NCBI GenBank assembly: GCA_003225465.1
Contig: QIAH01000347.1
Location: 1-38,077, forward strand
Direction: 5' to 3'
DNA: 38,077 nucleotides
DNA from: Acidobacteriota bacterium
Lineage (GTDB): Bacteria; Acidobacteriota; Terriglobia; Terriglobales; Acidobacteriaceae
Of this stretch, positions 15,027 through 23,887 are shown one piece after another. The position numbers and the translations under genes are program-made. The notes under the pieces are model-generated. The model was not told where the DNA came from, searched no databases, and saw only the letters and a list, made by a program, of their open reading frames with translations. Position 1 is the stretch's first letter, and each line of letters begins with the position of its first letter.

Positions 15027-15365
15027 TTACGGCACGCCGGGATCACGACGCGGTCTCGGCGTGCTACGGGAAAATCGCCTCGACTTTCGCTGCATCCGCT
15101 TCTGGACCTGCGTGACCAAGTGACTCACCTGCACGCCTCGAGCCCGCACCTTGGTTCCACTTTCCATCATTGAAGCCAGCAGGGCTTCGCCGTCGCCATC
15201 CACGAAAGTCACTCCGGCCAAGTCCAGCAATAGCTTCTTATTTCCTGCGCTCGACACCAGTTTCGTCCAGCCACGTTCTGCCTCGACCGTCCACGGCCGA
15301 CACAGCCGTCCTTCCAGAACGAAGGTAAGCGAACTCTGTGCTTCTTTAGTTGTGACCTTCAACAT
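15027..15365 (-). CDS. STAS-domain protein (anti-anti-sigma-like)
   Basis: The 112-residue product is essentially one STAS domain: LTFVLEGRLCRPWTVEAERG as the opening strand and helix, KKLLLDLAGVTFVDGDGEAL as the core strand and loop, and VRARGVQVSHLVTQVQKRMQ as the last helix. In SpoIIAA-type antagonists the loop carries a phosphorylated serine in D-S-S-G; here it reads D-G-D-G, so the usual phospho-switch residue is missing. I chose the ATG at 15365, where STAS similarity begins; the frame is open to 15443. The C-terminus ends in a basic tail. It is divergent from the sigma-54 activator gene and convergent with the region 4 protein gene. Confidence 0.75.
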   Translation of the reverse strand: MLKVTTKEAQSSLTFVLEGRLCRPWTVEAERGWTKLVSSAGNKKLLLDLAGVTFVDGDGEALLASMMESGTKVRARGVQVSHLVTQVQKRMQRKSRRFSRSTPRPRRDPGVP

Positions 15366-15517
15366 TGCTGGACGACCGAATCGTGATTCGGAGAGCACTG
15401 TGATGGCCCATGTGGGCTTTTGTATAACAATCACGTAAACCACTGAAAATGTGGGGCAATCTGGTCCGCAGCTGGCAATGGACCGACGGTTCGGTACAAC
15501 GAAGCGCAGTATCGGTG

Positions 15518-15546
15518 TCGATAATTCGACAGCGTCAAGTTATACT
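15518..15546 (+). promoter_or_regulatory. Candidate sigma-70 promoter of the sigma-54 activator gene
   Basis: A -35 element TCGATA (15518-15523, 4/6) and a -10 element TATACT (15541-15546, 5/6) are separated by 17 bp and precede the activator start by about 70 bases. A half-site TGATCCG (15546-15552) overlaps the edge of the -10 element. The same half-site forms the 17-bp palindrome in front of the efflux operon, so autoregulation by the activator is possible. Confidence 0.4.
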
Positions 15547-15616: not shown

Positions 15617-17686
15617 ATGGCCACGTTCCCCGAACAGTTCTCGTCCAGACCTGAACAGCAGTACGCCACGCTGCTGGAGGTTTCTCAGGCGATCGCGGCC
15701 CACCAGAGCCTCACCGAATTGTTTCAGGATCTGGGCAGGCGCCTGCACACGGTTCTCAATTTCAACTACCTGAGCCTCATTCTCCACGATCCCGTTCACG
15801 AAGTGATGCGCCTGCATACGCTGCACTTCGACGGCGTCATGACCATCCAGCCGGGCATGGAATTCGGGATGGAGGACTCTCCGTCGGCCGAAGTATGGCG
15901 TACACAAGCGCCGCTTACGATCGCTGACGCCGAACTCGAAACCCGCTTTCGCCGTGCCACCAAGACGCTCCACGACAATGGCCTGCGATCGTTCTGCAGC
16001 CTGCCGCTTACCACCGCTCGGCGCAAGCTCGGCACCATGAACCTGGGTAGTTCGACTGTGAATGCCTATCAGAATTCCGCGCTGAACGTGCTTCAGCTGG
16101 TCGCTTCCCAGGTAGCAGTTGCGGTCGAGAACGCCCTGAATTATGAAGACGCGCAGGCGTTCCAGCAGCAGGTCATTCGAGAGAGAGACCGCCTGAAGCT
16201 GTTGCTCGACGTCAACAACGCAGTCGTCTCGAACCTTGCACTATCGGAGCTGTTCCGCGCTATTCCCGGCAGCGTGCGCAACGCGATGCAGTGCGACGCC
16301 GCATGCCTTTCCTTGCCCGATCGCGATCAGGCGCAACTTCGAGTCTATGGCTTGGATTTTCCCGCAGGAAAGGGATTCATGCAGGATCAGATGGTGCTGC
16401 CCATGGTGGGCACGAGTCCTGGCACGGCGTTTCGCACGCGCAAGCCATTGCGGTTCGGCACCGCGCCGAAGTCGCTCGCGCCGGTCGCGCTCAGAGTGAA
16501 TGCAGAAGAGGGTTTCGAGTCGGGCTGCTTCCTTCCCATCATGCGCGGCAACCGTGCGCTCGGGGTCCTACACCTGCTCGATCGGCACAAGAATGCATTT
16601 TCTGAGGAGGACGTCGATTTTCTGCGGCAAGTCGCGAGCCAGGTGGCAATCGCGCTCGAAAACGCGCTCGAATTCAGCGAACTCAGCGAGTCGAAAGATC
16701 GGCTGGCCGAAGAAGGGCTTTATCTTCGCGACGAGATCCGCACCGAACACCATTTCGAAGACATCCTCGGCAATAGCAGCGGGCTCCGGCAGGTGCTGCG
16801 GCAGGTTGAGACGGTCGCTCCCAACGAGACCACCGTACTTATTCAAGGAGAGACCGGCACCGGGAAGGAACTGGTCGCGCGGGCCATTCATGGATTGAGT
16901 ACGCGGCGCGACAATATTTTCGTGAAGCTGAATTGCGCCGCCATCCCGCTCGGACTACTCGAAAGCGAATTATTCGGTCATGAGCGCGGCGCCTTCACGG
17001 GAGCCATCAGCCGCAAAGTTGGACGCTTCGAAATCGCTCACAAGGGCACGCTGTTTCTCGACGAGGTGGGCGACATCCCGCTCGAACTGCAGCCCAAGCT
17101 TCTGCGCGTTCTACAAGAGCAGGAATTCGAGCGCCTGGGCAGCACGCGCTCCATCCGAACGGATGTACGTCTGGTAGGTGCTACCAATCGTGACCTCGGC
17201 AAAATGGTCGAGCAAGGACAATTCCGCGCCGACCTCTACTACCGCCTGAACGTTTTCCCCATTCATATCCCTCCGTTGCGCGAGCGCCGTGACGACATTC
17301 CAATTCTCATTCGCTACTTCGTCGACAAATATGCCAAGACGATGAATCGCAAGATTGATCGCATCCCGGAATCGGTGATGGATGCACTCACTCGCTATGC
17401 CTGGCCCGGAAACATTCGCGAGCTGCAAAATTTCATTGAGCGTGCCGTAATTCTCTCTGAGGGCTCATCTTTGCGGCCGCCCCTCGCGGAATTGCGCGAG
17501 ACCAAATCGAAGAACTCTGCCGGCGCCACCTTGAAAGAAGTAGAAAGAAAGCACGTGTTGCAAGTGCTACGCGATACCGACTGGGTGTTTGGTGGTCCTG
17601 ATGGAGCGGCGGCACGCCTTGGAATGCCACGCACCACTCTCATCTATCGAATGCGCAGCCTCGGCATTCGGCGGCCGACGGACTGA
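15617..17686 (+). CDS. Sigma-54-dependent transcriptional activator (GAF-GAF-AAA+-Fis), FhlA-like
   Basis: The 689-residue protein has two GAF sensory domains at about 15-175 and 195-350, a coiled linker, the AAA+ activator domain at about 382-615, and a C-terminal Fis-type helix-turn-helix at about 640-685 (GAAARLGMPRTTLIYRM). Key motifs are intact: Walker A GETGTGKE (411-418), the sigma-54 contact loop GAFTGA (458-463), and Walker B TLFLDEVGD (478-486). It should hydrolyse ATP to remodel the sigma-54 holoenzyme at -24/-12 promoters in response to a ligand in the GAF domains. I chose the ATG at 15617, with AGGA upstream; the frame is open to 15449 without family resemblance. The next downstream genes are an RND pump preceded by a sigma-54 promoter, its probable target. 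Confidence 0.93.
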   Translation: MATFPEQFSSRPEQQYATLLEVSQAIAAHQSLTELFQDLGRRLHTVLNFNYLSLILHDPVHEVMRLHTLHFDGVMTIQPGMEFGMEDSPSAEVWRTQAPLTIADAELETRFRRATKTLHDNGLRSFCSLPLTTARRKLGTMNLGSSTVNAYQNSALNVLQLVASQVAVAVENALNYEDAQAFQQQVIRERDRLKLLLDVNNAVVSNLALSELFRAIPGSVRNAMQCDAACLSLPDRDQAQLRVYGLDFPAGKGFMQDQMVLPMVGTSPGTAFRTRKPLRFGTAPKSLAPVALRVNAEEGFESGCFLPIMRGNRALGVLHLLDRHKNAFSEEDVDFLRQVASQVAIALENALEFSELSESKDRLAEEGLYLRDEIRTEHHFEDILGNSSGLRQVLRQVETVAPNETTVLIQGETGTGKELVARAIHGLSTRRDNIFVKLNCAAIPLGLLESELFGHERGAFTGAISRKVGRFEIAHKGTLFLDEVGDIPLELQPKLLRVLQEQEFERLGSTRSIRTDVRLVGATNRDLGKMVEQGQFRADLYYRLNVFPIHIPPLRERRDDIPILIRYFVDKYAKTMNRKIDRIPESVMDALTRYAWPGNIRELQNFIERAVILSEGSSLRPPLAELRETKSKNSAGATLKEVERKHVLQVLRDTDWVFGGPDGAAARLGMPRTTLIYRMRSLGIRRPTD

Positions 17687-17741
17687 CACCCTAATCTGAA
17701 GCTGTCGATCTGCGTCGAATATTAGACACCCAGCAATCCTA

Positions 17742-17758
17742 TTGATCCGCCGGATCAA
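17742..17758. promoter_or_regulatory. 17-bp palindrome, candidate activator binding site (UAS)
   Basis: TTGATCCG and CGGATCAA are perfect complements around a single central C (17750). The centre lies about 100 bp upstream of the predicted sigma-54 transcription start, the usual place for an enhancer-binding activator. The half-site TGATCCG recurs in front of the activator's own gene at 15546-15552. Weak terminator function for the activator gene is an alternative, but no T tract follows. Confidence 0.5.
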
Positions 17759-17823
17759 AAACACTCTGCTTCCTAAGTGCTTCAGACATCATCGAATAGC
17801 GTATTGCACGTCATCATCGCCGA

Positions 17824-17839
17824 CTGGCAATGCCGTTGC
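17824..17839 (+). promoter_or_regulatory. Sigma-54 (-24/-12) promoter of the RND efflux operon
   Basis: The sequence TGGCAA-N5-TTGC (17825-17839), preceded by C, matches the consensus TGGCAC-N5-TTGC at nine of ten positions with exact spacing. The GG and GC pairs are 12 bases apart. Transcription would begin near 17851, about 100 bases before the first efflux gene. The adjacent upstream gene encodes a sigma-54 activator. Confidence 0.7.
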
Positions 17840-17952
17840 GGTGTCCCTTCGGGGTAGTGTCTGAAGCGTCGAACAACTGTGGGGTAATTGGGACTGTTGA
17901 CGGGACCTTGGCTCGCCTGGGCTTCGCCGTCAATTCATAAGAAGAGAGCATC

Positions 17953-20900
17953 ATGTGGATTGTTAAGTTAGCCCTGCGACGGCCGTACACCTTCACCGTA
18001 CTGGCCCTGCTGATTCTGATTCTGGGCCCGATTGTCATTTTACGGACGCCCACCGATGTCTTCCCCGAGATCAATATCCCGGTCGTCAGCATCGTCTGGA
18101 ACTATACGGGACTCTCGTCGGAGGATATGGGCAACCGGATCACATCGGTGACGGAACGTGCGCTGACGACGCTCGTAGATGACATTGAACACATCGAGTC
18201 CCAGTCGCTGAATGGGATCGCCGTCGTCAAGGTATTTTTCCAGCCGCACGCCAACATTGAGAAGGCGATTGCCCAGGTCACGGCGATTTCACAGACCCAG
18301 CTTCGGCAATTGCCACCGGGCACTACGCCGCCGTTGGTCATCACCTACAGTGCTTCGACGGTTCCGATTCTCCAGCTGGCGCTCTCGGGCCACGAACTCT
18401 CGGAGCAGCAACTGTTCGATTCGGGCGTTAATTTCATCCGCACGCGCTTGATCACAGTGCCGGGTGCAGCCATCCCTTATCCCTACGGCGGAAAGCAGCG
18501 CCAGGTGCAGGTGGACTTGAACACGACCGCCCTGCAGTCCAAGGGACTCTCTCCGCTCGATGTGGTGAACGCGGTCAGCGCGCAAAATCTGATTTTGCCC
18601 GCCGGTACCACGAAAATCGGCCCCCTGGAATATGACGTCGACATGAATGCCAGTCCGCAGAGTGTCGCGGAGCTGAACAATCTGCCGATCAAGAACGTGG
18701 GCAGCAACACCATCTACATTCGCGATGTTGCGCACGTCCGCGACGGTTTCCCACCGCAGACCAATATCGCGCGCGTCAATGGACAGCGCGCCGTACTTTT
18801 AACCGTACAAAAGGCCGGAAACGCTTCCACACTCGATATCATTTCGGGCATCAAGGGACTTCTGCCCCAGATTCAGCAGACCCTGCCCGCCGATCTCAAC
18901 ATCCGGCTGCTGGCTGACCAGTCTTTGTTCGTGCGCGGCGCCATTCAGGGTGTGCTTCGTGAAGCCATCATCGCGGCCTGCCTGACCGGATTGATGATCC
19001 TGATCTTCCTGGGAAGCTGGCGCAGCACGGTGATCATCGCGGTCTCGATCCCTCTCTCGATTCTGACCTCGATCATCTGCCTCAGCGCCCTGGGCGAAAC
19101 CATCAACATTATGACGCTGGGCGGTCTGGCGCTGGCGGTGGGAATTCTGGTCGACGACGCCACCGTGGAAATTGAAAACATCAACCGCAATCTGGCGATG
19201 GGCAAGGAAGTCGAACACGGGATTCTCGATGGCGCCCAGCAGATTGCGGTGCCCGCCTTCGTCTCCACGCTATCGATTTGCATCGTGTTTGTCCCGATGT
19301 TCTTCCTCTCGGGCGTCGCGCGATATCTGTTCGTCCCGCTTGCGGAAGCCGTCTGCTTCGCCATGCTGGCGTCTTATTTTTTGTCGCGAACCGTGGTGCC
19401 CACCATGGCGAAATACCTGCTGCGCGGGCATGAGGCCGAAGCCGGGCACGCGTCGGGGGACAAGCGAAATCTATTCGTTCGCTTGCAATTTCGGTTTGAA
19501 GAAGGCTTCGAACGTTTTCGCGAGCGCTATCACCTTTTATTGGAGCGGTGCCTTCATCATCAGCGGCTCTTTCTGATAGGGTTCTTCGCTGCTTGCGTGG
19601 TGTCGCTTGCGTTCCTGATCCCGTGGCTTGGGCAGGACTTTTTCCCCACTGTCGATAGCGGCCAATTCAAACTCCACCTGCGGGCCCGCACCGGCACGCG
19701 CATTGAAGAGACCGCGCGCCTCTGCGACCTGGTCGAGCAATCGATTCGCGAGCAGATTCCCGCCGATGAAGTCTCGAGCATCATCGACAACATCGGCTTG
19801 CCTTACAGCGGCATCAACCTGAGTTACAGCACTTCGGCGCCCGTGGGGCCCGCCGATGCGGACATCCTGGTGAGTCTCTCAGACCACCATCACTCGACCG
19901 ACAAGTATGTTCACGATTTGCGCATCCGGTTGGCTGACGAATTCCCGAGTGTGACGTTTTCTTTTCTTCCGGCCGACATTGTCAGCCAGATTCTGAACTT
20001 CGGCCTGCCCTCTCCGATCGACATCCAGATCGTGGGAGCCAACCTGGAAGCGAACCGCCAGTTCGCCGACCGACTGCTGCAACAGATCCGTTACGTGCCC
20101 GGCACGGTGGATTTGCGCATTCAGCAACCGTTCGATCAGCCCAAGCTCCATGTGAACGTGGATCGCACGAAGGCCGGCCAGATCGGGTTCACCGAGCGTG
20201 ACGTTGCTAGTAATCTGCTTATTTCGCTGAGCGGAAGTTTTCAGACTTCTCCCACATTTTGGTTGAACCCCAAAAACGGCGTCAGTTATGCGATCGCAAC
20301 GCAGACTCCGCAATACCGCCTTGACTCGTTACAGCAACTGCAGAATATTCCCGTGACGGGCGCAAGTGGAGCGCCGTCGCAAATCCTGGGCAGTCTGGCG
20401 GCGATCAATCGCGGAGTTGGTCTGGGGGTGGTCTCGCACTACGATATCCAGCCGGTCATCGACATCTACGGTTCCGTGCAGGGCCGCGATCTCGGCGGGG
20501 TCGCGCGCGATATGAACAAGGTGATCGACGCCAGCCGCAAAGATTTGCCTCGCGGAACGCAGTTGGTGGTTCGTGGGCAGATTCGCACCATGCGTTCTTC
20601 TTATGTGGGCCTGCTGGGCGGATTGGTGTTCTCGATCCTGCTGGTGTACCTGCTGATCGTCGTGAACTTCCAGTCCTGGCTCGATCCCTTCATCATCATT
20701 TCGGCTCTGCCGGCCGCGCTCGCGGGGATTGCATGGTTCCTGTTCGTTACGCGCACGACTCTCAGCGTGCCCGCCCTTACGGGGTCGATCATGTGTATGG
20801 GCGTGGCCACGGCGAACAGCATTCTGGTGGTGAGCTTTGCCAAGGAACAGCTGGCGGAGGGCAAGGATGCTTTGTCGGCCGCGCTGGAAGCAGGTTTCAC

Positions 20901-21120
20901 GCGCTTCCGCCCCGTCCTCATGACCGCGATGGCGATGATGATCGGCATGGTCCCCATGGCCATGGGTCTGGGCGAAGGTGGCGAGCAGAACGCTCCGCTG
21001 GGACGCGCTGTGATCGGAGGCCTCTTGCTGGCAACCGTTTCAACGCTGTTCTTCGTACCCACGTTCTTCAGCCTGCTGCACGGACGCAGGGCGAAGTCCG
21101 GGGAAGCTCAAAATGACTAA
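17953..21120 (+). CDS. RND efflux transporter, inner-membrane permease subunit (AcrB/MexB superfamily)
   Basis: The 1055-residue protein has the full length of an RND pump. It has an N-terminal membrane helix (LALRRPYTFTVLALLILILG), a first periplasmic domain, a helix block at about 335-490, a second periplasmic domain, and a last helix block at about 870-1045. The proton-relay pair Asp401-Asp402 sits in GILVDDATVEIENINRN, as in hydrophobe/amphiphile pumps. It exports unknown compounds from the periplasm or inner membrane using proton-motive force. The ATG at 17953 follows AGAAGAGAG. It is the first gene of a three-gene operon with adaptor and outer-membrane channel, probably under sigma-54 control. 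Confidence 0.95.
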   Translation: MWIVKLALRRPYTFTVLALLILILGPIVILRTPTDVFPEINIPVVSIVWNYTGLSSEDMGNRITSVTERALTTLVDDIEHIESQSLNGIAVVKVFFQPHANIEKAIAQVTAISQTQLRQLPPGTTPPLVITYSASTVPILQLALSGHELSEQQLFDSGVNFIRTRLITVPGAAIPYPYGGKQRQVQVDLNTTALQSKGLSPLDVVNAVSAQNLILPAGTTKIGPLEYDVDMNASPQSVAELNNLPIKNVGSNTIYIRDVAHVRDGFPPQTNIARVNGQRAVLLTVQKAGNASTLDIISGIKGLLPQIQQTLPADLNIRLLADQSLFVRGAIQGVLREAIIAACLTGLMILIFLGSWRSTVIIAVSIPLSILTSIICLSALGETINIMTLGGLALAVGILVDDATVEIENINRNLAMGKEVEHGILDGAQQIAVPAFVSTLSICIVFVPMFFLSGVARYLFVPLAEAVCFAMLASYFLSRTVVPTMAKYLLRGHEAEAGHASGDKRNLFVRLQFRFEEGFERFRERYHLLLERCLHHQRLFLIGFFAACVVSLAFLIPWLGQDFFPTVDSGQFKLHLRARTGTRIEETARLCDLVEQSIREQIPADEVSSIIDNIGLPYSGINLSYSTSAPVGPADADILVSLSDHHHSTDKYVHDLRIRLADEFPSVTFSFLPADIVSQILNFGLPSPIDIQIVGANLEANRQFADRLLQQIRYVPGTVDLRIQQPFDQPKLHVNVDRTKAGQIGFTERDVASNLLISLSGSFQTSPTFWLNPKNGVSYAIATQTPQYRLDSLQQLQNIPVTGASGAPSQILGSLAAINRGVGLGVVSHYDIQPVIDIYGSVQGRDLGGVARDMNKVIDASRKDLPRGTQLVVRGQIRTMRSSYVGLLGGLVFSILLVYLLIVVNFQSWLDPFIIISALPAALAGIAWFLFVTRTTLSVPALTGSIMCMGVATANSILVVSFAKEQLAEGKDALSAALEAGFTRFRPVLMTAMAMMIGMVPMAMGLGEGGEQNAPLGRAVIGGLLLATVSTLFFVPTFFSLLHGRRAKSGEAQND

Positions 21121-21158: not shown

Positions 21159-22397
21159 ATGCAAGTGGAACAGGAAGAAAACGTGGAAACGACAGTCGCG
21201 ACGCGAAATTTGCCCGGTGGACAACAAACTCCGCCACTCCGATCCCAGCGCCGCCGGGGCTGGGTAATCGCGTTGGTCGCGTTTCTGATTGTTGCCGCCG
21301 TGGTAATTTCAGGCATTGTCCCCAGGGTGAGGGCACGAGCGACGCTGCGCAACGAGACGAATCAACTTGCTGTGCCCAGCGTCGTGGTCGCACAACCCAA
21401 AAAGTCCGCCCCTGGCCAGGAAGTCATTCTCCCGGCTAACGTGCAGGCCTTCAAAGATGCTCCTATCTATGCGCGCACGAACGGCTACCTGAAACGCTGG
21501 TACGTGGACATCGGCGCGCGCGTAAAGACGGGGCAGTTGCTCGCGGAAATCGACACTCCGGAAGTCGATCAGCAGCTTCGCCAGGCACGCGCCGATCTCA
21601 GCACAGCCGAAGCGAACATGCATCTTTCGGAAATTACCTCGACTCGCTACCAGGGCTTGCTGAAGAGCGACTCTGTCTCGCAGCAGGAAGCCGACAATGC
21701 CAATGGCGATTTTGCAGCCAAGAAGGCCATTGTCCAGTCATCGCAGGCGAATCTCCGCCGTCTGGAAGAACTCACGTCCTTTCAGAAAATCTACGCGCCC
21801 TTTGATGGCGTGATCACCGCCCGTAACACGGATGTCGGACAGTTGATTGATTCCGGCAGCGCGGGCGGTCCGAAGAGCGAACTGTTCCACATGGCCCAGC
21901 CCGGAAAGTTGCGCGTCTACGTGAATGTTCCCCAGGTGTACTCGCAACTGGCGAAACCTGGACTGAAGGCAGATTTAACGCTGGCGGAATTCCCGGGACG
22001 CCGCTTCGAAGGTACGTTGATACGAACGGCGGATGCCATCGATTTTGCGACCCGCACATTGCTGGTCGAGATCGAAGTCAACAATCCCTCCGGCGAGTTG
22101 CTGTCGGGTGCCTATGCCGAGGTCCATCTCAAGCTGCCGGGCAACATTGCCACGTTTACGATTCCGGTGAACACGCTGTTGTTCCGTGCTGAAGGTTTGC
22201 GAGTCGCGGTGGTGAAGGATGGGAAAGCCAACCTGGTGCCTGTGACCCTGGGCCGCGATTTTGGGAGCGAGGTCGAGGTTCTCACCGGCTTGAATGGCGA
22301 CGAGAACCTCATCGTGAACCCGCCCGATTCGATCGTCTCGGGCCAGTCCGTGCGTCTCGCCCAGAATGCTGCGGGGCCCAAGGGAGGAACGCAGTGA
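21159..22397 (+). CDS. RND efflux periplasmic adaptor (membrane fusion protein)
   Basis: The 412-residue protein links the inner-membrane pump to the outer-membrane channel. It begins with a cytoplasmic tail and one membrane anchor at about 34-54 (WVIALVAFLIVAAVVISGIV). Then come the split lipoyl/barrel-sandwich domain (VQAFKDAPIYARTNGYLKRW and KIYAPFDGVITARNTDVGQL), an alpha-hairpin between them (QQLRQARADLSTAEANMHLS onward), and beta-barrel and membrane-proximal domains. The ATG at 21159 has GGGGAG seven bases upstream, 38 bp after the pump gene. Its stop overlaps the GTG start of the channel gene by 4 bp. Confidence 0.94.
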   Translation: MQVEQEENVETTVATRNLPGGQQTPPLRSQRRRGWVIALVAFLIVAAVVISGIVPRVRARATLRNETNQLAVPSVVVAQPKKSAPGQEVILPANVQAFKDAPIYARTNGYLKRWYVDIGARVKTGQLLAEIDTPEVDQQLRQARADLSTAEANMHLSEITSTRYQGLLKSDSVSQQEADNANGDFAAKKAIVQSSQANLRRLEELTSFQKIYAPFDGVITARNTDVGQLIDSGSAGGPKSELFHMAQPGKLRVYVNVPQVYSQLAKPGLKADLTLAEFPGRRFEGTLIRTADAIDFATRTLLVEIEVNNPSGELLSGAYAEVHLKLPGNIATFTIPVNTLLFRAEGLRVAVVKDGKANLVPVTLGRDFGSEVEVLTGLNGDENLIVNPPDSIVSGQSVRLAQNAAGPKGGTQ

Positions 22398-23887
22398 GGC
22401 TGAAGAAGGTTCTCTGGAGCGCGGGCGGGTTGCGCGCCCGGATCGTTCTGTTCGGTCTCGGACTGCTTGTGCTTAGTGGTTGCACGGTAGGACCACGCTA
22501 TGCGAGGCCGACAACGCCCGCCCCGCCGCAATTCAAGGAACTGCCTCCGAATTGGAAACCCGCGGAACCCAGTGATCAGCTCGCGAAAGGAAACTGGTGG
22601 GAGATTTTTCAGGACCCTCAATTGAATGCGCTGGAGCAGCAGATCAACGTTTCGAATCAGACCCTGAAAGCTGCGCAGGCGCAATTTGAACAAGCGCGCG
22701 CCGCCGTGCGCATCAATCGCTCTTTCCAGTACCCAACCGTGACGGGAGGAGTAAGCGCCACCCGCAACCACGTGTCGGTCAATCGCCCGAATGGCCGTCT
22801 CGCGCCCACCAATAATTACACCGACCTTCAGCTTCCCGTGGATGCATCCTACGAAGCCGATGTCTGGGGGCGCGTGCGGCGCACGGTAGAAGCGGCTCGC
22901 GCCAGCGCTCAGGCTACTGCCGCGGATGTCGAGAGCGTGAGCCTCAGCCTTCACGCCGAACTTGCCTCCGACTACTTCCAGTTGCGCGCCCTCGATGCCG
23001 AAGAACAGTTGCTGAACTCGACAGTCGCAGCCTACGAAAAAGCGCTCGAGCTGACTCAGAACCGCTTCAGCGGGGGGGTCGCATCGCAGGTCGACGTCGC
23101 CCAGGCCCAAACGCAGCTCGAGACTACACGCGCGCAGGCGATCGACGTTGGTGTTCAGCGCGCACAGTTCGAGCATGCGATCGCGGTGCTCACCGGTAAG
23201 GCGCCCTCGACCTTGACGCTCGCCTCCGCGCCGTTGACGAGTACACCTCCTGTGATCCCGACCGGGCTGCCTTCGGATTTGCTGGAACGCCGTCCAGATA
23301 TCGCTGCCACCGAGCGCCGGATGGCGGCTGCCAATGCAGAGATCGGCGTGGCCAAAGCCGCTTACTATCCAACGATTACTCTCAGCGGGACCGGTGGCTT
23401 CGAAGGAAGTTCCATCACGAACTGGTTCAACGGTCCCAGCGGGTTTGTTGCGGCTGGAGTGTCTGCCATCGGAACCGTCTTCGACGCGGGCCGACGCCGC
23501 GCCGTTACCGATCAGGCCAAGGCCGCCTACAATCAGTCGGTCGCCAATTACCAGGAGACGGTGTTAACGGCGTTTCAGGATGTCGAAGACAACCTTGCAG
23601 CGTTGCGCATTCTCGAACAAGAGGCCACCACCGAGAATGCAGCCGTAACCGCCGCGGAACATTCCCTGGCCCTCTCGAACAACCGCTACAAGGGCGGAGT
23701 CACCACCTATCTCGAGGTCATCACCGCGCAGAGCGTCGCGCTGTCAGATGAGCGCGTTGCCGTCCAGATCGCAGGTCGACGCATGACTGCTGCCGTCCTG
23801 CTGATCAAGGCCCTTGGCGGAGGGTGGACGACGTCGACTCTCCCTGTTGTACAGAAAGACGGGCCTGCTTCGAATAACGGACAGTAG
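22394..23887 (+). CDS. RND efflux outer-membrane factor, NodT-family lipoprotein
   Basis: The 497-residue protein starts at GTG 22394 with GGAGG seven bases upstream. Its signal peptide ends in the lipobox LSGC (27-30), and the mature start CTVGPRYARP is typical of NodT/OprM-type channels. Two outer-membrane-efflux repeats follow; WWEIFQDPQLNALEQQ opens the first and LPSDLLERRPDIAATERRMA marks the second. Trimers form an outer-membrane channel and periplasmic tunnel for the adjacent RND pump. Transcription stops before the hairpin repeat at 23922-24036. Confidence 0.95.
   Translation: MRLKKVLWSAGGLRARIVLFGLGLLVLSGCTVGPRYARPTTPAPPQFKELPPNWKPAEPSDQLAKGNWWEIFQDPQLNALEQQINVSNQTLKAAQAQFEQARAAVRINRSFQYPTVTGGVSATRNHVSVNRPNGRLAPTNNYTDLQLPVDASYEADVWGRVRRTVEAARASAQATAADVESVSLSLHAELASDYFQLRALDAEEQLLNSTVAAYEKALELTQNRFSGGVASQVDVAQAQTQLETTRAQAIDVGVQRAQFEHAIAVLTGKAPSTLTLASAPLTSTPPVIPTGLPSDLLERRPDIAATERRMAAANAEIGVAKAAYYPTITLSGTGGFEGSSITNWFNGPSGFVAAGVSAIGTVFDAGRRRAVTDQAKAAYNQSVANYQETVLTAFQDVEDNLAALRILEQEATTENAAVTAAEHSLALSNNRYKGGVTTYLEVITAQSVALSDERVAVQIAGRRMTAAVLLIKALGGGWTTSTLPVVQKDGPASNNGQ

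Follow-up and report, generated by a model that had tools for sequence, protein, structure and literature searches.

The activator gene and the efflux operon

The window (the whole 38,077-nt stretch of DNA analyzed here, from a 6.1 Mb draft genome of 590 contigs) carries a sigma-54 activator gene followed, on the same strand, by the three genes of a tripartite efflux pump. This is the gene context given in the initial annotation, which described a sigma-54 activator with an intact GAFTGA loop before a putative promoter and the genes of an RND efflux pump after it, and both neighbors are confirmed. The activator (15617-17686, forward strand) has a GAF-GAF-AAA+-Fis HTH organization based on Pfam matches to GAF/GAF_2 (two stretches), Sigma54_activat (1.9e-71), and HTH_8 (3e-06). 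Its reading frame is open from 15449, although the true start is probably the ATG at 15617 (giving 689 amino acids), because homologs align only from approximately residue 57-70 of the longer ORF. In the translation, the GAFTGA sigma-54 contact loop lies at 16988-17005 (forward), Walker A (GETGTGKE) and Walker B (LFLDEVGD) are intact, and the Fis-type HTH (17594-17653, forward) has the recognition helix MPRTTLIYRM, which is specific to a six-member clade (see below). The protein thus has the parts that define a one-component GAF-type enhancer-binding protein (the AAA+ Sigma54_activat domain, GAFTGA, and Walker A/B), as well as a Fis-type HTH together with a predicted dyad binding site (UAS) in the range ∼80-150 bp upstream of the transcription start. 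The GAF domains suggest a small-molecule inducer. There are more than 30 activator-like matches in the genome, which encodes rpoN on another contig, C492 (Sigma54_DBD, 1.6e-60).

The pump genes are all on the forward strand in the order RND-MFP-OMF, with the permease (17953-21120; ACR_tran, PF00873, 6.6e-207) first, then the periplasmic adaptor (MFP/HlyD, 21159-22397; TIGR01730, above cutoff) and the outer-membrane channel (NodT/OEP, 22394-23887; TIGR01845, above cutoff). The permease fits the broad ACR_tran family. It scores 550.6 and 448.9 bits against the HAE1 multidrug RND models NF033617/NF000282 (cutoff 1250) and 421.8 bits against the CusA/CzcA heavy-metal RND model TIGR00914 (cutoff 701), and is therefore not assigned to either substrate class. 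The proton relay of an HAE1 permease is present only in part: the DD of TM4 is there, but TM10 has Ala (GVATANSI) where AcrB/MdtB-type pumps have Lys. Ala or Ser occupies this position (GVATANSI/GVATSNSI) in 42 of 43 related permeases, so the mode of proton relay may be a different one in this RND subgroup.

A −24/−12 element ahead of the pump

The gap between the end of the activator gene (17686) and the start of the permease gene (17953) contains TGGCAATGCCGTTGC at 17825-17839 (forward), which matches TGGCAC-N5-TTGC at nine of 10 positions, with the correct GG-N10-GC spacing and a nonconsensus A and T after TGGCA. The element had been proposed as TGGCAA-N5-TTGC, a nine-of-ten match with exact spacing, and the sequence, its coordinates, and its spacing all agree. 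Counting from the −12 C at 17839, transcription is predicted to start at 17851 (forward).

Judged by itself, such a motif would be weak and quite ordinary. With up to two mismatches to the sigma-54 consensus, the window has 38 matches, when 45 are expected, and five sites on its two strands have no more than one mismatch. The bare −24/−12 motif has a chance of ∼2% of falling in the activator-pump interval on the pump strand. Scored with a sigma-54 weight matrix (hand-made, as is the joint UAS and promoter score used below), TGGCAATGCCGTTGC reaches 12.5, and ∼2% of shuffled 350-nt post-activator regions reach 12. The case for this promoter rests on the comparison with related genomes.

Pairing of the promoter with a predicted activator site in related genomes

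Upstream of the element, at 17713-17728 (forward), is CGTCGAATATTAGACA, the predicted UAS of the pump promoter. It is an imperfect site, with 10 of 12 positions matching TGTCGA-N4-TCGACA, and it lies 112 bp ahead of TGGCAATGCCGTTGC. Sites of the type NGTCGA-N4-T(C/A)GACN occur 112-125 bp ahead of −24/−12 elements before the orthologous pumps of three other genera (G314, G364, and G420), whose permeases are 77-80% identical to that of the window. In G314, TGTCGATAGATCGACT is followed after 112 bp by TGGTAAGGGAGTTGC; in G364, CGTCGAAGCATCGACA is followed after 125 bp by TGGAAGAATGGATGC; and in G420, CGTCGACCACTAGACG is followed after 124 bp by TGGTACGTCAAATGC. Conservation in relatives had been named beforehand as a check on the promoter, and the −24/−12 element is kept in all three. 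The activator gene, which is in tandem with the pump in the window, is convergent and located after the pump operon in G314 and G364, and is divergent and ∼3 kb from the pump in G420.

The same combination of UAS and −24/−12 element precedes aldo/keto reductase genes or operons (at 120 bp in G314, 123 in G364, 112 in G420, and 123 in G340) and the STAS-like gene of G159 (111 bp). Overall, the UAS-promoter distances fall into two groups, near 112 and near 123 bp, that differ by one helical turn, in line with DNA looping. At loci L225, L226, L104, and L100, the aldo/keto reductase gene adjoins an activator of the window's clade and, in G314, G364, G420, and G340, has a UAS and a sigma-54 site of its own.

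For each pair, the joint UAS and promoter score was reached by none of 300 dinucleotide shuffles. The exact composite pattern has seven matches in eight genomes, including all four orthologous pumps, compared with one match for the reversed control. When the upstream regions of 42 related permease genes were ranked, the orthologous pumps and a second G420 pump were at the top, and 31 of the 42 regions have no comparable UAS/promoter signal. It should be noted that the window, G314, and G340 supplied the initial UAS consensus; the more independent tests of it are G364, G420, G159, and a perfect copy at 15516 (see below). Genome-wide, sites with up to one mismatch to the UAS are not enriched (five, compared with 11 matches to the reversed pattern). 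A dedicated local regulator would be consistent with this, but the count adds no support.

Two other candidate targets in the same genome were rejected. The aldo/keto reductase ortholog (contig C236) has neither a UAS nor a sigma-54 site upstream, and a second pump (C408; permease 72-74% identical, activator gene convergent) has a poor −24/−12 element (8.4, at −241) and no UAS, and so appears not to belong to this regulon. Separately, the related pumps of loci L131, L132, and L133, which have no adjacent activator gene, are preceded by TGGCAT(A/C)CGGGCTGCA at approximately −99 to −195, so that sigma-54 control by an activator encoded elsewhere is possible for them.

A second predicted activator site beside a STAS-like gene

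A perfect site, TGTCGATAATTCGACA (15516-15531; 12 of 12 positions of TGTCGA-N4-TCGACA), lies in the gap that separates the activator gene from a divergent gene for a small STAS-like protein (15027-15365, reverse strand; a subthreshold STAS_2 match, E = 0.0027). The 6.1 Mb genome has only two exact copies of the perfect site, each beside an activator gene. The STAS-like protein resembles MLRIT... proteins encoded after the promoter in related loci, and in relatives a STAS-like gene often comes first downstream of the sigma-54 site, at a comparable distance. The STAS-like gene is a probable second target of the activator. A weak candidate −24/−12 element for it, GGGCCATCACAGTGC (15395-15409, reverse), is located 122 bp from the perfect site and 44 nt ahead of the STAS ATG (15365). 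This element retains the GG and GC and is otherwise poor; because its matrix score is only 4.8, it makes control of the STAS-like gene just plausible.

The other perfect copy is on contig C517 (locus L139), where TGTCGANNNNTCGACA and TGGCAAATGCAGTGC (together at ∼2369-2484) are 101 bp apart between a paralogous activator gene and a gene for a predicted secreted/outer-membrane-like protein. When scored at a spacing of 105-128 bp this pair is not significant (seven of 300 shuffles), the promoter being at 101 bp instead. This may be a second regulon built in the same way, and cross-talk between the two is possible.

The activator family across the class

We surveyed activator homologs from the same class at 82 nonredundant loci with a readable next gene. 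Efflux-type genes come directly after the activator in 34 of them, as RND-MFP-OMF or as OMF-MFP-MFS (EmrB type), the OMF often having an N-terminal STAS-like stretch. Strong sigma-54-like sites (matrix score ≥9) occur at 18 of the 34 efflux loci versus eight of the 48 others (p = 0.0007), the latter made up of two of 22 loci with other next genes and six of 26 with opposite-strand next genes. At the efflux loci, 18 sites are on the coding strand versus four on the opposite strand (p = 0.0006); Fisher p for the site comparisons ranges from 0.0006 to 0.001. In the f5-family group (five loci with a 70%-identical pump), the 330-nt gap after the activator stop has largely diverged except for two conserved islands, the UAS (a CGTCAATATTTTGACGTCAA dyad) and the −24/−12 element (TTGGAA-N5-CATGCC), ∼122 bp apart.

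As a side observation, the TolC-like channel of L105 (5696-7321) and the first post-activator genes of L113 and L116 have ∼100 STAS-like residues at the N terminus. This stretch precedes an apparent signal peptide in one frame, and could be a true fusion or reflect an internal start.

The window activator and those of G314, G364, G420, G340, and G159 form a clade (support 100/100) with clade-specific HTH residues. The recognition helix is (M/V/I)PRTTLIY(K/R)MR in the members with a complete C terminus (the G340 copy ends at a contig edge). The helix MPRTTLIY pairs with TGTCGANNNNTCGACA (GTCGA) sites, KRTTLQS with TGCCGATATTTCGGCA sites, and KRTTLFY with CGTCAATATTTTGACG sites. Because a change of helix from one clade to another goes with a change of site, each activator appears tied to the dyads of its own locus, which argues for the neighboring activator, rather than a distant one, acting at the window.

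A predicted sigma-54 switch and its alternatives

Taken together, the sequence evidence makes it very probable that the locus is a one-component sigma-54 switch in which the neighboring GAF-GAF activator turns on the RND-MFP-OMF operon. That the adjacent activator controls the pump through sigma-54, as first suggested, is strongly supported by the promoter and UAS conserved in orthologs with rearranged gene order. The wiring looks like an inducible detoxification switch and not a chance match, because UAS and promoter are kept beside the same pump even where the activator gene has moved.

Enhancer-binding proteins act as UAS-bound hexamers that loop to the sigma-54 polymerase and open the promoter by ATP hydrolysis. 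What the sequence shows here is the parts, their spacing, and their conservation; from these we infer the binding and activation steps, the inducer, the start of transcription, and the substrate of the pump. The activator, as a dimer and later a hexamer, would bind the TGTCGA-N4-TCGACA-type sites at 17713-17728 and 15516-15531, and its GAF domains would sense a small molecule. Through DNA looping it would contact the sigma-54 RNA polymerase waiting at TGGCAATGCCGTTGC, ATP hydrolysis via the GAFTGA loop would open the promoter, and the operon would then be transcribed from ∼17851. The site at 15516-15531 probably has a further role in regulating the divergent STAS-like gene, the activator itself, or both. 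The co-controlled aldo/keto reductase in relatives may hint, if faintly, that the inducers are reactive carbonyls, quinones, or other xenobiotics.

The −24/−12 match could instead be coincidental, in which case a sigma-70-type promoter, or read-through from the activator gene, would drive the pump. The motif is not rare, given the five window sites with at most one mismatch, and no terminator was found in 17500-18000, so none between the activator and permease genes. However, no sigma-70-like promoter was found in the same interval, and read-through cannot explain the UAS and −24/−12 pairs at orthologous pumps that do not have the activator gene in front of them, making this reading highly improbable. 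Scarcely more credible is that the promoter is real but another sigma-54 activator drives the pump, while the neighbor controls the STAS-like gene or itself. The genome offers many candidates, with its more than 30 activator-like matches; the perfect site is on the STAS/activator side, whereas the pump site is imperfect; and a perfect site of this type is also found beside the C517 paralog. Against this, activators of the window's clade are always near the pump in G314, G364, G420, and G340, and the pump (or reductase-pump) promoters of these relatives carry the clade's site.

The initial annotation had also placed operators around the promoter. The repeats do exist, but they are not conserved in relatives; the activator most likely acts instead through the conserved site at 17713-17728, together with the perfect copy at 15516-15531. 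A perfect 17-nt palindrome, TTGATCCGcCGGATCAA (17742-17758), lies 67 bp ahead of the −24 element and is unique in the genome, and the arms of a 10-nt inverted repeat, GCTTCAGACA (17779-17788, forward) and TGTCTGAAGC (17858-17867, forward), flank the −24/−12 element. We considered the palindrome as the main activator site, given its classic distance (approximately −101), and rejected it, as it is absent from every orthologous promoter; a repression loop formed by the GCTTCAGACA inverted repeat was rejected for lack of conservation in the same promoters. That these repeats are extra operators, serving a second regulator or a promoter-enclosing repressor loop, is unlikely, if less so than the two readings above: The orthologous promoters have no counterpart, and by our own estimate a 10-nt inverted pair is expected ∼0.035 times in 270 nt, which is only mildly unusual.

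Comparison with known systems

In Aromatoleum aromaticum EbN1, the predicted sigma-54-dependent activator EtpR is required for expression of a neighboring efflux cluster, which has sigma-54 binding motifs and is effector-induced; EtpR also controls a catabolic cluster and responds to a growth substrate (PMC4630880). This is the nearest precedent that we found. It shares with the window a predicted sigma-54 activator and neighboring efflux genes, but the catabolic cluster is its own, none being seen at the window. The sensor domain of EtpR is probably also different from GAF.

The best NCBIfam match of the activator is to the FhlA family (NF011958; residues 239-742), with which it shares GAF, AAA+, and Fis HTH, although its score of 570.6 bits stays below the cutoff (830) and the genes that it would control form an efflux operon. 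Another GAF-regulated one-component sigma-54 activator that adjoins its target operon is NorR (NF003451); here the score is 369.3 bits against a cutoff of 476, and the window target is not a nitric oxide reductase. AcrR, MexR, and MexT resemble the window activator in being local regulators encoded beside the pump operon that they control. They work at sigma-70 promoters, however, either by repression or as activators of the LysR type, whereas the window would use ATP-dependent sigma-54 activation. In Myxococcus xanthus, CorSR provides a sigma-54 activator for metal-detoxification genes, but it is a two-component, copper-responsive system and its target is not an RND drug-type pump (PMC3707914). 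Acidobacteria go unmentioned in the main text of a sigma-54 regulon survey from 2025 (PMC12316311), and we found nothing relevant on sigma-54-controlled efflux in Acidobacteria in the open-access literature. The initial description of sigma-54 pump control as uncommon is partly right: The machinery is ordinary and the wiring is unusual for drug-type pumps, but it is recurrent in the class, at 34 of the 82 loci, and EtpR is a precedent.

Implications for efflux control

The usual picture of drug-type efflux is one of repressor control and transcription from sigma-70 promoters. With modest confidence, we favor the view that an Acidobacteriota-like class has a large family of GAF-type sigma-54 activators, apparently not described before, whose dedicated task is inducible tripartite efflux (of the RND or the OMF-MFP-MFS kind), and that the window shows one of its branches. 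In this family, recognition helix and enhancer would have coevolved clade by clade, STAS-like and aldo/keto reductase partners would be co-regulated, and toxic compounds would be exported largely through ATP-driven responses that depend on sigma-54, rather than under repressor-based control. Such GAF-sensing wiring may yield pumps that are tightly silent yet strongly inducible. Each activator-UAS pair with known spacing would be a ready reporter for natural inducers, and the matched differences in recognition helix and enhancer sequence would amount to a directly testable specificity code.
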